Below, in pieces: positions 39 to 36,596 of a DNA stretch of 36,596 bases (the stretch's first letter is position 1; every line of letters begins with the position of its first letter). The position numbers and the translations under genes were made by a program. The stretch comes from Gammaproteobacteria bacterium 42_54_T18 (lineage in GTDB: Bacteria; Pseudomonadota; Gammaproteobacteria; Pseudomonadales; Ketobacteraceae): assembly GCA_002163245.1 (NCBI GenBank), contig MAAL01000069.1:1-36596 (forward strand), in the 5' to 3' direction. Under the pieces are notes generated by a model that worked only from the letters and a program-made list of their open reading frames with translations, did not search any database and was not told where the DNA came from.

Positions 39-214
39 TGTTACAGTTATTCGTGTGGTTGCTTTCTACAGCCCATATTTGACGGGGTATTCGGATGCGC
101 TCGCCATGCCCCTCCCCCTTCTTCCACTTATACTCATTCAGGTAACACAACTCACCACATATATTTGTTACGGTGTTACCGCAACGGGAACACTTTTAGC
201 CAAAAGAGGTAACA
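39..214. promoter_or_regulatory. Cluster of TGTTAC/GTAACA half-sites, candidate CbrB-type enhancer
   Basis: Five exact half-sites of one inverted motif are visible: TGTTAC at 39-44, 166-171 and 174-179, and GTAACA at 142-147 and 209-214. By my estimate about 0.1 such hexamers would be expected by chance in this length at equal base frequencies. They lie about 85-260 bp upstream of a -24/-12 promoter, where enhancers of sigma-54 activators usually sit. In Pseudomonas, CbrB binds a TGTTAC/GTAACA dyad upstream of crcZ. The half-sites here are not at the 14-bp spacing I recall for that dyad, so the precise operator arrangement is uncertain. CbrB as the ligand is inference; its gene would lie left of the window. 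Confidence 0.55.
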
Positions 215-323: not shown

Positions 324-668
324 CGTAACTGGGACGAAGTGATAAAACAACAAAAACAACCACTTAGTAACTGTGACAACAAAACAATAAAAAGAAGCAA
401 TAATAAAAATAAAATAAATAATAAAAATAAAAACTAGAAAGTTTAAAAATAATAATAAAAATAGAAAATAATAATAAACGAACAATAAAAACACTCTAAA
501 AAAACAGTAAGACATTAATAAAAACAATAATAATAGAAAATATAATAATAAGAACAAGCAATCCCAAAACAATAAAAAGAGTCGGCACATAAAAAAATAC
601 TTATCTGTAACAATAAAAACAAATAGCAGATGATAAAAGGGAGGGCTTAATCGCTCTCCCTTTTTTAC
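324..668 (+). ncRNA. crcZ: CrcZ-like A-rich regulatory RNA (Hfq/Crc decoy)
   Basis: A roughly 345-nt untranslated region is bounded by a sigma-54 promoter and a strong intrinsic terminator. It is extremely A-rich, with very little G or T on the plus strand. It contains more than a dozen AAnAAnAA motifs, for example at 346-353, 352-359, 383-390, 417-424, 448-455, 467-474, 523-530, 547-554, 568-575 and 609-616. AAnAAnAA is the catabolite-activity motif bound by Hfq with Crc in Pseudomonas. There, the CrcZ RNA carries several such motifs, is transcribed by sigma-54 polymerase under CbrAB, and lies between cbrB and pcnB. Here pcnB is the next gene downstream. The combination of location, promoter type, base composition and terminator supports a CrcZ functional homologue that titrates Hfq/Crc when preferred carbon runs out. 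Sequence identity to known CrcZ is not tested, and the motif count is far higher than I remember for Pseudomonas. Confidence 0.75.
635..666 (+). terminator. Rho-independent terminator of the CrcZ-like RNA
   Basis: The stem GGGAGGGC (639-646) pairs with GCTCTCCC (653-660) through one G-U pair around the 6-nt loop TTAATC. It is extended by AAAA/TTTT and followed by six T residues (661-666). This is a canonical intrinsic terminator and fixes the RNA 3' end near 666. Confidence 0.9.
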
Positions 669-858: not shown

Positions 859-2223
859 ATGCCCAAACGGCTAATAAAAAAGATTAAAAGCATCCTAAAA
901 GGTGGCGAAAGCGCTAACCAGCTTCGAGCCAATGTCATTACTGATGACAAACACCATTTTGACTCAAGCTCCACAAATGCCGCCAATGCTATTAAAGTAG
1001 TTAACACCCTAACAAAAGCAGGTTACGAAGCTTATCTGGTCGGGGGCTGCGTTCGAGACGGGCTACTAGACCTGCATCCAAAAGACTTTGACGTATCAAC
1101 TGATGCTCACCCTGAAGAAATCAAAGCATTATTTAATCGCAACTGCCGATTGATTGGGCGCCGCTTTCGGCTTGCACACATACGCTATGGCAGGGAAATT
1201 ATTGAAGTGGCAACATTTCGTGGCCATCACAGCAATTCGACAAGCAAACAGCAATCCTCAACCTCAGATCACGGCATGTTATTGAGAGATAACGTATACG
1301 GCACTTTAGATGAAGACGCTATCAGACGCGACTTCACTGTAAACGCTCTATACTACCGCCCTGCCGATAACGCTATCATTGACTACGTAAATGGATACGA
1401 AGACATACAGAACCGCTGCTTGCGTATCATTGGTGACCCAGAACTTCGGTACAAAGAAGACCCCGTAAGAATGCTACGAGCCATTCGATTTAGTGCGAAA
1501 CTAGGCTTCACCTTGAGCACAGAATCTGAAGCTCCAATTCAACCTCAATCACAATTGCTAGGCCTAATTCCAGCAGCCCGCCTTTTTGATGAAGTGCAGA
1601 AGTTATTTATGGGTGGTGTTGCCACAGAAGTTTGGCGGCAGCTTTTACATTACGATCTAGCGCAATGGTTATTCCCTTACTCTGTACCAGGCAAAAACAA
1701 ACACCCCGGCGCGACTGCCATGATTGAACACGCCATGGTTAACACAGACAAACGCATCGCAATAGGAAAATCCATTAACCCTGCGTTCCTCTATGCCGTC
1801 ATGTTATGGGGACCTCTACAGGTAAACTGGGAAAAACTAAAGCGCGACGGAATCCCTCCCGTTCCCGCACTCCAGCAAGCCATCCAACAAACATTACAAA
1901 AACAAGCCAAGCACACTACAATTCCAAAACGGTTTGTCACCACAATTCGTGAGATTTGGGAGCTGCAACCGCGCCTTAATCGACGTCATATAAAGCCTGC
2001 CCAACAACTTATTGAGCACCAACGATTTAGAGCAGCCTATGACCTTTTATTACTGCGAGAAGAAGCTGAAGAAACACCTCCTGGTTTAGGTGAATGGTGG
2101 ACAGAATTTCAAGAGGCGGATGCTGATGCGCAAAAAGCCCTTGCTGCTGAGCACACACAACCCAGAAAGAAACGCCGCCCTGCGCGCCGTCGTCGCCCAG
2201 CAAAACCCAAAGCACAACAGTAA
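859..2223 (+). CDS. pcnB: Poly(A) polymerase I
   Basis: PcnB adds 3' poly(A) tails to RNA and so promotes RNA decay. The class II nucleotidyltransferase head is clear: YLVGGCVRDGLL, then KDFDVST with the two metal-binding aspartates, GRRFRLAHI, the RRDFTVNALYY box and EDPVRMLRAIRFSAKLGF. The C-terminus ends in a long Arg/Lys-rich tail typical of PcnB rather than of CCA-adding enzymes. The reading frame is open from 787, but the ATG at 859 (454 aa) gives an N-terminus more like Pseudomonas PcnB. Neither start has a strong ribosome-binding site. folK follows after 15 bp, the usual pcnB-folK pair. Confidence 0.93.
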   Translation: MPKRLIKKIKSILKGGESANQLRANVITDDKHHFDSSSTNAANAIKVVNTLTKAGYEAYLVGGCVRDGLLDLHPKDFDVSTDAHPEEIKALFNRNCRLIGRRFRLAHIRYGREIIEVATFRGHHSNSTSKQQSSTSDHGMLLRDNVYGTLDEDAIRRDFTVNALYYRPADNAIIDYVNGYEDIQNRCLRIIGDPELRYKEDPVRMLRAIRFSAKLGFTLSTESEAPIQPQSQLLGLIPAARLFDEVQKLFMGGVATEVWRQLLHYDLAQWLFPYSVPGKNKHPGATAMIEHAMVNTDKRIAIGKSINPAFLYAVMLWGPLQVNWEKLKRDGIPPVPALQQAIQQTLQKQAKHTTIPKRFVTTIREIWELQPRLNRRHIKPAQQLIEHQRFRAAYDLLLLREEAEETPPGLGEWWTEFQEADADAQKALAAEHTQPRKKRRPARRRRPAKPKAQQ

Positions 2224-18459: not shown

Positions 18460-20397
18460 ATGAGTGAACACAAAGTATATCCCGTCAAACCCGACTATGC
18501 TGCTGGCGCAAATATTACCAAAGAACAATATGATGCCTGGTATCAAGAATCCATTACTGACCCTGATACGTTCTGGGCAGACCGTGCCAATGAGTTCCTC
18601 GACTGGGATCAACCTTTCACTCAAACTCAACGCTTTGATTTTAATAAAGCTGAAGCCACCTGGTTTGAAGGTGGCAAACTCAACATCACCACCAACTGTA
18701 TTGATCGACACTTAGAAAAACGAGGCGAACAGGTTGCCATTATTTGGGAAGGTGACGACCCGGAAGACGATGCCAGTATCACTTACAATGATCTACACAA
18801 AAACGTCTGCAAGCTAGCCAATGCATTACGTGCACGCGGTGTTAAAAAAGGGGATCGGGTTTGTATCTACATGCCCATGATTGTTGAAGCTACTTATGCA
18901 ATGTTAGCCTGTGCGCGTATCGGTGCTGTGCACTCGGTAGTATTTGGTGGCTTCTCCCCCGACGCACTAAAAGATCGTATCCTCAATTCTGATTGCCAAA
19001 CACTGATCACTGCCGATGAAGGTGTACGTGGCGGCAAAACGGTCCCATTAAAAGCCAATGCTGACAAAGCGCTAGAGTCTTGCCCAAATGTTCACACCTG
19101 TCTTGTGGTAGAACGCACCGGTGGTGACATCCAATGGAACGAGAAAGTTGACGTTTGGTATCACGACCTTGTAGAGCAAATGCCAGAAGAATGTGAGCCT
19201 GAGTCCATGGACTCAGAGGATCCATTATTCATTCTCTATACCTCTGGCTCAACAGGCAAACCCAAAGGTGTTTTACACACTACAGGGGGTTATCTATTGT
19301 GTGCTGCCATGACCCACAAATATGCCCTCGATTATCGTGAAGGCGACATTTACTGGTGTACCGCCGATGTAGGTTGGATTACTGGGCACTCTTATATTGT
19401 CTATGGCCCCCTTGCTAACGGCGCCACAACATTAATGTTTGAAGGTATTCCAACGTATCCGGATGCATCCCGCTGCTGGCAAGTTATCGACAAACATAAG
19501 GTTAATATCTTTTATACTGCTCCAACAGCATTACGCGCCTTAATGCGAGTCGGCAACGAACCGGTCACCAAAACCAGTCGCGCCTCACTGCGTCTACTGG
19601 GTACCGTCGGTGAACCCATCAACCCCGAAGCCTGGGAATGGTATTACAATATCGTTGGTGAAAGCCGCTGCCCTATCGTTGATACTTGGTGGCAGACAGA
19701 AACCGGTGCAGCAATGATTGCCCCATTACCTGGAGCTCACGCGCTAAAGCCAGGATCAGCAACCTACCCATTCTTTGGTGTACAACCCGCACTGGTTGAT
19801 GGTGAGGGCAATATCCTGGAAGGGGAAGCCGAAGGTAACCTTATCATCACGCATTCCTGGCCTAGCCAAATTCGCTCTGTTTACGGTGATCATCAGCGTT
19901 GTATTGATACTTATTTTTCCACTTATAAAGACAGCTACTTTACCGGTGACGGTGCTCGCCGTGATGCCGATGGCTGTTATTGGATTACGGGGCGTGTTGA
20001 CGATGTGCTCAACGTTTCCGGCCACAGACTTGGCACTGCAGAAATCGAAAGTGCGTTGGTATTACATAAAGCTGTCGCAGAAGCCGCTGTTGTTGGTTAC
20101 CCTCATGACATCAAAGGCCAAGGCATTTATGTTTATGTCACACTTATGGCTGGTGTTGAAGCCTCTGACACACTAAAAGCCGACCTGGTAAAAATGGTCA
20201 ACACTGAAATTGGGCCCATCGCCAAGCCTGATATTATCCAGTGGGCCCCAGGATTACCAAAAACCCGCTCAGGTAAAATCATGCGCAGGATACTACGCAA
20301 AGTTGCCGCCAATGAGATTGATAGCTTAGGTGACACGTCTACACTAGCCGATCCTAGTGTTGTTGATGATATTATTACAAATCGCGCCATCAAATAG
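18460..20397 (+). CDS. acs: Acetyl-CoA synthetase
   Basis: Acs activates acetate to acetyl-CoA through acetyl-AMP. At 645 aa it is the standard length. The motifs are [20 protein letters not shown] (P-loop-like), [42 protein letters not shown] and the C-terminal [11 protein letters not shown], whose lysine is the residue acetylated to control Acs in other bacteria. A ribosome-binding site (AGTAGGAA) precedes the ATG. It follows the iron transporter by 114 bp and appears to be a separate unit. Catabolite control by the CrcZ-like RNA would be plausible for acetate use, but I see only a near-match to the A-rich motif in its leader. Confidence 0.97.
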
Positions 20398-20410
20398 CTC
20401 TTGATGCATT

Positions 20411-20456
20411 AGAATAGGGTTGTTATAGCGGACGCCTTACATAACAACCCTATTCT
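20411..20456 (+). terminator. 16-bp hairpin after acs
   Basis: AGAATAGGGTTGTTAT (20411-20426) is perfectly inverted at 20441-20456 around a 14-nt loop. It lies 14 bp after the acs stop. No T-run of normal length follows (CACTTTCACC), so it may be a weak or factor-assisted terminator or a 3' stabilising stem. Confidence 0.6.
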
Positions 20457-20633
20457 CACTTTCACCTTACCGAAAACACCCACCAACAAAAACAATACTC
20501 AATCAATGCTCGACAAAAAATAAAACAAATACTTTCAATAAGTTACACCCCTTCTTTAACGTTTCTCCTACTCTGCATTTCTTAGCTATAGTTAATAGAT
20601 CCCATAGCAATTAACAGCACATGCAGTTAGCCA

Positions 20634-23600
20634 ATGACAAAGTTTACTACCCTATTTCAACACCCTCTTTTTATCTATAAAACCCTCGCCTGGAGCTTGG
20701 TGGTTTTATGTTGCTTGGGGTTAACTCTGCCTACCTTGGGTCACTCTGCAGCAGCGACTTCCATTTCTACAACCTCCCCTGCCTCAGTCCCCGTCAGTAA
20801 AGGCATGAATAGCATAGCGCTAGGGAAGTCTCTTCTTTATTGGGTTGATAGCAATGACACAGCCAACATTGATAACATAGTAAAAAAAGGACAAAGCCAT
20901 TGGAAACCCGTCGAGACAGACACCCCAAACTTTGGCTTCACCAGTGAAACATACTGGTTCAGACTTGATACAAGCAATATCGAAAACATTCAACAAAAAG
21001 TATTATTAAGCATCGAGTATGCCGCCCTAGATGACATTCAAATCTATGAAGTTCAAAACGGCAACGTATTACAATCTCACGTTCTAGGTGACAAGCACCC
21101 CTTTAACAGTCGCCCTATTTACAACCGTAATTTTATTGTTCCTATTATCTACAAACCCGGCGAGCATAAACGTATTTTTCTACGCATAAGTACCACAGGC
21201 TCTGTTCAGGTCCCACTATTTATCCGAGACTACGATCACTTTAATGAACAAGAACAAGGCTACCTAACCGGCCAGGGCTTTTATTACGGCTTAATGTTTA
21301 TTATGGCTGTGTATAATTTATTCCTATTTATTTCTATCCGAGATGTGGCCTACCTTTATTACGCCATCTCTGTTGCTGCTTTTGCCCTTTTTCAAGCTTC
21401 ATTGCACGGAGTGGGATTTCAATTTATATGGCCTAATATAGCGGGAGCCAATAGCTGGAGCATCCCATTTTTCCTCAGTGTATTTGCACTCGCAGGGTGT
21501 TTATTTACCAACTCGTTTCTTCGGCTAAAAAAGTATCATATTAACTTTCATCGTTTTTTTACTCTTTGGATAGTGTTTTACACTTTCATTGGCATCGGCT
21601 CACTGTTTGCACCGTACCAAATAGTAATACGCCTCGCGGCAGTTGGTTCCATTCCCGCTGCTATTATCGCGCTGTATATCGGTATAAAGATGCTGACAGA
21701 AGGTCACAAATCCGCTCGTTTCTTTGCTTCAGCATGGTCAGCATTTCTGATTTCCGCCTTTATCTTAGCATTAAATAAATTCTCTCTATTACCTCGAACT
21801 AACCTCACAGAATACGCCCCTCAAATTGGCGGCATTTTACAAGTTATACTTTTATCCTTCGCTCTTGCAGACCGTATTAGCATGGATAGAAAAGCCAAGC
21901 TTTCAGCGCAACAGAAATTACTGGAAAGTGAAAAACAAGCTCGCCTTGACCAAGAACGTTACATGCAGCTTAAAATAGAAGCGAGAGAAGAAGAAATGAT
22001 CGCAGAGAGAAAAGTGTTCTCTGCAGAAGCTGAAAGCAAAGCCAAGAGTGAATTTCTCGCCACCATGAGCCATGAAATTCGCACCCCTATGAACGGAGTA
22101 CTCGGTATGGCGGAGTTACTTCAAAGTACCGAATTACAAAAGACGCAGCGTCAATATGTAGACATCATTAGCAGCTCAGGGAAAGCGCTTCTTAATATCA
22201 TCAATGACATCCTAGATTATTCAAAAATCGCATCAGGAAAAATGGACATTGAATCCGTTGATGTCGACATTGATCAGTTGTGTTTGGAGTGCGCATCGGT
22301 GTTTTCCCTTACCGCCGAAAAAAAGCACCTAGAGCTTGTTTCTTCAATTGAACCCAACACCCCCATGCTGATTCAGTCCGACCCAACAAGGCTTCGCCAA
22401 ATCTTACTTAACCTTCTAGGCAACGCATTTAAATTTACCAATAGTGGTTGCATTAGTTTACGTGCCTTTGAGATCAAAGAATCCTATTCTGCTGACAATG
22501 GCCACCTCTTACGATTCGAAGTCAAAGATAGCGGCATCGGTATTACTGAAGAACAACAAAACAAACTCTTTACTGCCTTTTCTCAAGCAGACAAATCAAC
22601 CAGCCGGCAATTTGGTGGCACTGGCCTGGGCCTGAGTATATCCAAGAACCTATCCCAATTAATGGGTGGAGAAATAGGCGTTGAAAGTATCGAGGGTGAA
22701 GGTTCAACGTTTTGGTTTACCATTCGCTGCCAAGAAGCCAACGACACATTCAAAGAAGAACACTATATCCCTCTCTCCTCCCTTAAAGGTAAACGCGTTC
22801 TCCTTGTGGATGACTCTCCCGAATTTATACAGGTGGTAAAAGAACAAGCAGAATCCTGGGGAATGGAGGCATCAGTTGCTTATTACGGCGAGCAAGCACT
22901 AAAAATGTTACACACCGCATACGATGAGAAACGCCCTTATGAGCTAGTATCCTTTGATATGAATATGCCAGGGCTCAGCGGCCTAGAGTGCGCTCAAGCC
23001 ATGAGCCAAGACAACGACCTTAAGGCCATTAAACGTTTGCTCCTAACCGCTATGCGAACCACTCCCGAAAAATCGGTACTAAAGAATGCAGGGATAGAAG
23101 TTGCTATGCAAAAACCCGCATCAGCAACGGCGTTACGCGAGTCATTTCTAAACTTACTGGGTTATAGCCAAGAGCAATTGCCTGGGCAACAAAATGACCA
23201 AACAGAGCGCCTATCACGCCTGAGTAAAAAACATGTTCTCATTGCAGAGGACAACATGGTCAATCAAATGGTTATCAAAGGTATGCTTAAGAAATTAAAA
23301 GTCTCCTTTGATATCGCTAGCGATGGTGTAGAGGCCTTTGACAATATCAAACAACACCATGACAAATACGACGCGGTATTAATGGATTGTGAAATGCCGA
23401 ATATGGATGGTTACGATGCAACAACTGCCATCCGTAGCTGGGAGCAGGAAAACAACGAACACCCCCTTCCCATTATCGCTCTTACCGCTCACGCAATGAA
23501 AGATCGACTCGACAAGGCGATTACATGCGGCATGGACAGCCACCTTGTTAAACCTATCGAAATTGAAGGGTTACGTAGCTGCCTTGAAACACATATATTG

Positions 23601-23669
23601 GATAATCATAGCGAAGATGATACGAATTCGCTTCAACCTCATGGTGCTGAAAAAAACGGCAGCCTTTAG
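20634..23669 (+). CDS. Hybrid sensor histidine kinase, 7TMR-DISM type with two receiver domains
   Basis: This 1011-aa inner-membrane kinase has, in order: a signal/anchor segment (about 15-45), a periplasmic 7TMR-DISMED2-like domain (about 60-190, with [12 protein letters not shown]), seven membrane helices (about 215-415), a coiled coil (about 415-465), HisKA with His480 in [11 protein letters not shown], a HATPase domain with [15 protein letters not shown] and GGTGLGLSI, and two receivers. Receiver 1 has VDDSPE and Asp775 ([10 protein letters not shown]). Receiver 2 has AEDNMVNQ, Asp918 ([11 protein letters not shown]) and KP. DISM proteins sense carbohydrate-like or other small ligands, but the ligand here is unknown. 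No partner regulator is adjacent, so it is an orphan. Confidence 0.9.
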
Positions 23670-36457: not shown

Positions 36458-36596
36458 GTAATGGTAGGAATACAGCTCGCGCCATACCCCCCCATGCAGA
36501 TCCGGACGTGCGGTTTTCCCGCATCCGGCTCCTCGGTCGTACTCGCTCTCGCAGTACAAAGCTACATATTACCACGTTACCCGCTTCGTTATCTTT
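36458..36596 (-). mobile_element. 3' end of a group II intron (domains V and VI), continuing past the right edge
   Basis: On the minus strand, 36531-36498 folds as domain V. It has the AGC catalytic triad (36530-36528), stem GCCGGAUGCGG, a GAAAA loop, the ACCGCAC return with the AC bulge and the GUCCGGAUC base. One G-A mismatch replaces the usual G-U next to the triad. Following it, a G-run stem with a GNRA (GCGA) loop and a bulged A (36465) 7-8 nt before an AC end matches domain VI with the branch-point A. The 3' splice site would be near 36458. The intron-encoded protein would lie beyond the window. The intron is antisense to yoeB and begins right after its stop. Confidence 0.82.

Follow-up and report, generated by a model that had tools for sequence, protein, structure and literature searches.

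RNA sponges of the CsrB/RsmZ type carry many sites that titrate a translational repressor, the sites being GGA hairpins for CsrA/RsmA. CrcY and CrcX are other CbrB-driven, A-rich sponges, which occur as further copies elsewhere in the genome. According to the accessible parts of the sources cited here, CrcZ has been likened to CsrB/RsmZ-type sponges, and the P. aeruginosa RNA binds Hfq itself, through six A-rich stretches (Kd about 7.4 nM), in competition with mRNAs for the distal face of this protein (PMC5501646). Crc joins through a basic patch touching the presented RNA (PMC9890229). In P. putida, CbrB binds forward TGTTAC and reverse GTAACA subsites (PMC6296734), and read-through from cbrB into crcZ is known in Azotobacter (PMC6292655). 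In its accessible part, a 2022 review regards CbrAB as unique to Pseudomonadaceae and the order cbrA-cbrB-crcZ as described only in Pseudomonas and Azotobacter (PMC8871633). No CrcZ in Halomonas, Marinobacter or Cellvibrio was found in the accessible portion of the openly licensed literature, a body of work that could miss a report in a subscription journal.

The window, that is, the whole stretch of DNA analysed here (36,596 bases, the entire contig G000:C118), comes from a 6.66-Mb draft genome in 199 contigs that is 96% complete. Judging from its sequence and surroundings, an RNA encoded at the left of this window is the apparent positional and regulatory counterpart of CrcZ. The features of the locus are as follows:

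1-108, strand not assigned: end of an insertion-sequence-like repeat, recognised by 100% identical stretches of 95-108 nt that end contigs C111, C109 and C178
142-214, plus strand: four CbrB-type subsites (GTAACA 142-147, TGTTAC 166-171, TGTTAC 174-179 and GTAACA 209-214), with subsite letters from the accessible part of PMC6296734
298-313, plus strand: sigma-54 promoter TGGCACGGGATCTGCT, read in the sequence, with the same letters in G002 and G003
324-666, plus strand: CrcZ-like A-rich small RNA of about 343 nt with a predicted start, recognised by motifs, fold and synteny
346-623, plus strand: putative sites for the distal face of Hfq, namely eleven runs with four or more AAN triplets each, from the run count
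571-589, plus strand: family-specific box AATAAAAAGAGUCGGCACA, from the comparison across family genomes
601-634, plus strand: small hairpin UUAUCUG...CAGAUGAUAA just before the terminator, from sequence and fold
635-666, plus strand: intrinsic terminator AAAAGGGAGGGC-TTAATC-GCTCTCCCTTTTTT, from sequence, fold and covariation
859-2223, plus strand: pcnB (poly(A) polymerase), the neighbour of crcZ as in Pseudomonas

The sigma-54 promoter claimed by an earlier, sequence-only reading of this stretch was borne out at 298-313, where GG and GC stand at the correct spacing, and the position of this promoter would place the transcript start near 324. The pattern TGGCAC-N6-TGC has a single occurrence in the 36.6-kb window, which is this very site. 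Because 26 of 100 shuffles of the window also contained at least one such pattern (mean 0.29), the letters of the site prove little by themselves, and it is position and conservation that carry weight. The four CbrB-type subsites further upstream fall within 73 nt, an arrangement matched by none of 300 window shuffles; over the whole window, subsites show no enrichment (22 vs. 18.7 expected). Among 62 loci preselected for a sigma-54 site (14 from the window's family and 48 named), all 62 have two or more GTTAC/GTAAC half-sites in the 300 nt before this site, compared with 3 of 48 pcnB control stretches. The subsite spacing (forward subsites at -132 and -124 and reverse ones at -156 and -89 in the window; about -124, -103 and -81 in Pseudomonas) is peculiar to the window's family, which has a reverse site at about -89 in place of the Pseudomonas ones near -103 and -81.

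Downstream of the promoter, the stretch 324-638 is composed of 61.3% A, 11.7% C, 9.2% G and 17.8% T, so that a near absence of G and T, as previously proposed, was overstated for T, G being the rarer of the two. The earlier count of more than a dozen AAnAAnAA motifs proved correct, with 14 non-overlapping copies in this interval vs. 7.9 ± 1.7 in dinucleotide shuffles, none of 1000 being as high. Runs of at least four AAN comprise 55 triplets vs. 13 ± 6 in shuffles (0 of 1000 as high), and the autocorrelation of A at lag 3 reaches 0.24 vs. 0.00 ± 0.05. Since all three measures lie above the shuffles, the triplet pattern exceeds mere A-richness. The longest AAN run (six) is not unusual, as 231 of 1000 shuffles show. 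Outside the RNA, the window contains 65 AAnAAnAA motifs on both strands combined, or about one per kb and strand. A 117-aa open reading frame on the minus strand (321-674) was set aside as a by-product of the A-rich strand.

The fold of the whole RNA has a z-score of -3.3 and is mostly open apart from the terminator. This strong terminator had also been noted, and sequence, fold and stem covariation agree on it at 635-666, with 4 of the 10 stem pairs having both partners changed in one or more of 12 family sequences; a simple terminator scan found none and left it unreported. The covariance search showed weak sequence similarity to Pseudomonas CrcZ, the best match of the window to the Rfam CrcZ model (RF01675) reaching 20.7 bits for a cut-off of 95. 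No CrcZ match in the window attained the gathering threshold, and the sub-threshold CrcZ pieces returned by a permissive scan have no weight alone. The sole match at threshold was a group II intron 3' domain (36458-36533, minus strand, 50 bits) at the right contig end. Elsewhere in the window, positions 18460-23669 are occupied by an acetyl-CoA synthetase-like gene followed by a gene for a 7TMR-DISM hybrid histidine kinase.

With the CrcZ of Pseudomonas and Azotobacter, the RNA shares its place between cbrB and pcnB, a sigma-54 promoter, a terminator, CbrB-type subsites about 80-160 nt upstream of the promoter and repeated A-rich Hfq-type motifs. It differs in falling below the Rfam cut-off, in having its own 3' box and in the lack of any Crc found beside it. 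Whereas Pseudomonas CrcZ has 4-6 AAN runs and 31-39% A (18 stretches, among the matches listed), the window RNA has eleven runs and 61% A. Over the 315 nt past the promoter, the window (61%) and its sister species G002 (62.5%) rank highest in A content among 55 stretches from the matches listed, in line with the earlier impression of a decoy more extreme than the known versions. AAN runs also set it apart from the GGA hairpins of CsrB/RsmZ-type sponges. The box, with the consensus AAYAAWAARAGUCGGCAYA, is present in the RNA of 13 of the 15 family genomes when 0-1 mismatch is allowed, G006 carrying a variant. At that stringency it had no match other than the RNA in the 15 family genomes and is thus single-copy, unlike CrcY and CrcX, which are further copies. 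By its locus, the window RNA is a crcZ counterpart; its sequence does not belong to the Rfam family, and its circuit represents a variant with no known co-repressor.

The genes cbrA and cbrB had been expected just left of the window. Both are present in the genome, on contig C34 (68% identity for cbrB and 55% for cbrA, the queries being the two proteins from G133, a Pseudomonas-type genome), but cbrB is absent from the window contig, the assembly being broken by the insertion-sequence-like repeat. Contig C34 terminates 334 bases past the cbrB stop, and its end, followed by the window, aligns consecutively to a single contig of G002, the sister species (C251; PcnB 93%), where an uninterrupted stretch carries the 3' part of cbrB, then the RNA and then pcnB. 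This order, together with CbrA, CbrB and Hfq encoded in the genome itself, supports the CrcZ-like identity and crcZ position initially attributed to the RNA. cbrB is also found upstream of the RNA in G003 and G004, two ferritin-like genes lying between them in G003 (L066 8638-9590). The repeat occurs at four contig ends of the own genome and at the end of C34. Its inverted ends, CATGGCGAACGCATC on C34 and GATGCGCTCGCCATG in the window, each stand beside a 10-nt direct repeat, CCCCTCCCCC (window 109-118), an arrangement that has the appearance of one left by a transposon; the sequence of G002 is diverged at the position of the direct repeat beside the insertion. In the own genome, cbrB is therefore predicted to lie upstream of the RNA, with a putative insertion-sequence-like element between them (C34/C118). 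The CbrB subsites and the promoter are on the RNA's side of this element, which may interrupt cbrB-crcZ read-through here.

The proposal of an Hfq/Crc-type control held for Hfq, which is encoded in the own genome and has a conserved sequence, F replacing Y at position 25. It did not hold for Crc, as a Crc/nuclease profile search found no Crc in the own draft genome or in any of the 15 family genomes. This profile yielded one match of 77-101 bits in 12 of these genomes and one of 365 bits in G005, with no match in G006 (54% complete) and G012. Both the own match and that of G005 have the nuclease residues E, D and N intact, as in ExoIII-type nucleases, the other 11 of the 12 low-scoring matches being judged by score only. 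An ordinary CrcZ acting on Hfq and Crc, with a crc gene missed through assembly gaps or divergence, is an unlikely explanation, even if the 199 contigs and 96% completeness of G000, the fast evolution of Crc suggested by its long tree branches and the score-only judgement of those 11 matches leave it some room. Indeed, the profile returned at most one gene per family genome, the two matches inspected are catalytically intact nucleases and a Crc-type match is likewise absent from G005 and G007, each a single contig. Moreover, the same profile scored 268 bits or more in 28 of 30 genomes from named loci, and a protein with a degenerate Crc-type active site was identified in 26 of the 30 (as top match in 21 and second match in 5), those without it being UBA5078, LSUCC0112, SI072 and the sister species of the window. 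The decoy thus likely acts on Hfq without Crc.

Searches of 23 other genomes of the order, made with a single-sequence query that is less sensitive than the profile, detected a Crc-type protein in 18 (in G036 from partial sequence), intact nucleases only in G030, G031 and G035, and no match in G016 (75% complete) and G032. In a tree of 61 proteins, rooted for drawing only and with some long branches that leave inner placements unsure, the 42 rows with a degenerate active site all fall on one side of a branch (100/100), and the nucleases of G005 and G035 are adjacent to them (95/95). A FastTree species tree of 63 taxa groups the family with G035 and G030 (support 1.0) and leaves its placement beside Pseudomonas unsupported; at this depth the tree fits both a loss of Crc and its absence from the start. 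The CrcZ-like RNA was also found in G035, G030, LSUCC0112 and UBA5078, so that, together with the family, the sponge was kept in more than one lineage where Crc is missing. G031 had no sigma-54 match of the searched form, and G032 no CbrA/CbrB-level match. Regarding Hfq, the changes common to the 14 family sequences recovered (F12, F25, Y39 and LLRN) look like lineage markers. Their interpretation as compensation for Crc loss was rejected, since F25 also occurs in genomes with a Crc-like protein (G019, G020, G028 and G033), and G031, which is without Crc-like protein, has an ordinary Hfq.

Within the window's family, the CrcZ-like RNA was found in 14 of 15 genomes, the one without it being G001, in which cbrA is located at a contig end and a full pcnB was not found. 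In G005, G008 and G010, pcnB is elsewhere and the RNA remains with cbrB. The version in G005 (L121, G005:C1:519500-523000) is an 821-nt CrcZ-like RNA with 19 AAN runs; it adjoins cbrB, and pcnB is far away. Partner loss would remove part of the selection on such an RNA, and the window RNA is more A-rich than those found elsewhere, two points that would suit a relic that drifted towards A after Crc loss and no longer works. Such decay is nonetheless very improbable, given a promoter identical in three congeners, the conservation of subsites, box and terminator pairing in the family, an AAN phasing far above shuffles, the size and run number of the G005 version and the persistence of the RNA with cbrB when pcnB is elsewhere. 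That the RNA is a leader or attenuator of pcnB and not a free small RNA, as its location upstream of this gene on the same strand might suggest, is hardly credible with a strong terminator about 190 nt before pcnB and an RNA separable from pcnB in these three genomes.

Beyond the family, a PcnB-alignment scan of named genomes, covering a sample of at least 80 loci, revealed cbrB upstream of pcnB in 52 loci among the matches listed, 51 of which have a sigma-54 site and at least three AAnAAnAA motifs in between. Among these listed matches, this holds for 18 of 18 Pseudomonas loci and for 33 of the 34 from elsewhere, including the sister species; only the MAG SI072 (L184) deviates, in which cbrB adjoins pcnB and neither a CrcZ-like RNA nor a Crc-like protein was found. 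Loci without cbrB were positive in 2 of 28 cases among the matches listed, namely Salinicola and a Cellvibrio contig that starts inside the region. Positive genomes included Halomonas and relatives, Marinobacter, Oceanospirillum, Motiliproteus, Cellvibrio, Gilvimarinus, Microbulbifer, Zhongshania and Spongiibacter, and the pcnB loci of Vibrio, Photobacterium, Colwellia, Ferrimonas and Chromatiales-type genomes were negative among the matches listed. The Rfam CrcZ model captures little of this spread: under strict filters, 28 of 145 genomes of the order gave a match at E up to 0.001, 7 of them above the cut-off. In Marinobacterium (L178), an A-rich motif stretch precedes pcnB, but the locus has neither cbrAB nor a sigma-54 site of the TGGCA type; its genome encodes a Crc-like protein.

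On a broader scale, CbrA matches of at least 640 bits were obtained in 20 of 185 genomes sampled across the class, 17 of them labelled only as belonging to the same class. Seventeen CbrA loci were examined (16 of that label from outside the order, and G048 from the same order), and cbrB was located behind cbrA in 16. None of these 16 class-wide loci, G048 included, has an A-rich RNA behind cbrB, which suggests that the CbrA/CbrB two-component system predates its RNA partner. The case of G048, in which cbrA and cbrB occur but cbrB is not followed by such an RNA, shows that the link between CbrAB and the RNA is not universal. In two genomes from outside the order, G289 (L347) and G310 (L343), CbrB-type half-sites and a sigma-54-like site were observed between cbrB and the next open frame, and CbrB may drive a protein gene instead of an RNA in these bacteria. 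Transcripts of cbrA/cbrB have been reported from a seawater metatranscriptome, in the accessible part of that study.

By analogy with Pseudomonas, CbrA/CbrB would be active under poor carbon supply. CbrB would then bind the TGTTAC/GTAACA cluster at 142-214 and drive sigma-54 transcription from about position 324. The resulting RNA, ending at 666 and predicted to be largely unstructured, would offer about eleven AAN runs to the distal faces of Hfq hexamers. Hfq would be drawn off the A-rich leaders of catabolic mRNAs, the translation of which would be freed. In the window itself, only 3 of 29 open reading frame starts have a run of at least four ARN triplets nearby. Since P. aeruginosa CrcZ binds Hfq directly, an RNA with eleven AAN runs should titrate this protein without Crc, and both repression and relief would rest on Hfq alone, or on Hfq and another partner yet to be recognised. 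The abundance of Hfq sites may make up for the absent co-repressor; the high A content of the RNAs in Cellvibrio and Gilvimarinus (54-56%), which have kept a Crc-like protein, speaks against A-richness as compensation for a lost Crc.

On these grounds, we regard it as highly probable that the locus codes for the lineage's counterpart of CrcZ, a CbrB-driven Hfq sponge with a predicted function. The broader evolutionary reading is probable, at a lesser degree: CbrA/CbrB would be older than the RNA, and the CbrB-sponge-Hfq circuit would be separable from Crc and Crc-free throughout the window's family and related lineages, making the window RNA a natural Crc-free Hfq sponge. This state might have arisen by a single loss of Crc in the clade, or the circuit might be older than Crc, an option raised by the nucleases of G005 and G035, which branch next to all Crc proteins. 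If this reading is true, the CbrAB-CrcZ system spans many families, compared with the Pseudomonas and Azotobacter to which the accessible part of the 2022 review confines it (PMC8871633). Natural lineages would also exist in which the sponge works without Crc, CrcZ being otherwise described as an Hfq/Crc antagonist. The contribution of Crc, and the sufficiency of Hfq on its own for carbon catabolite control, would then be open to direct testing.
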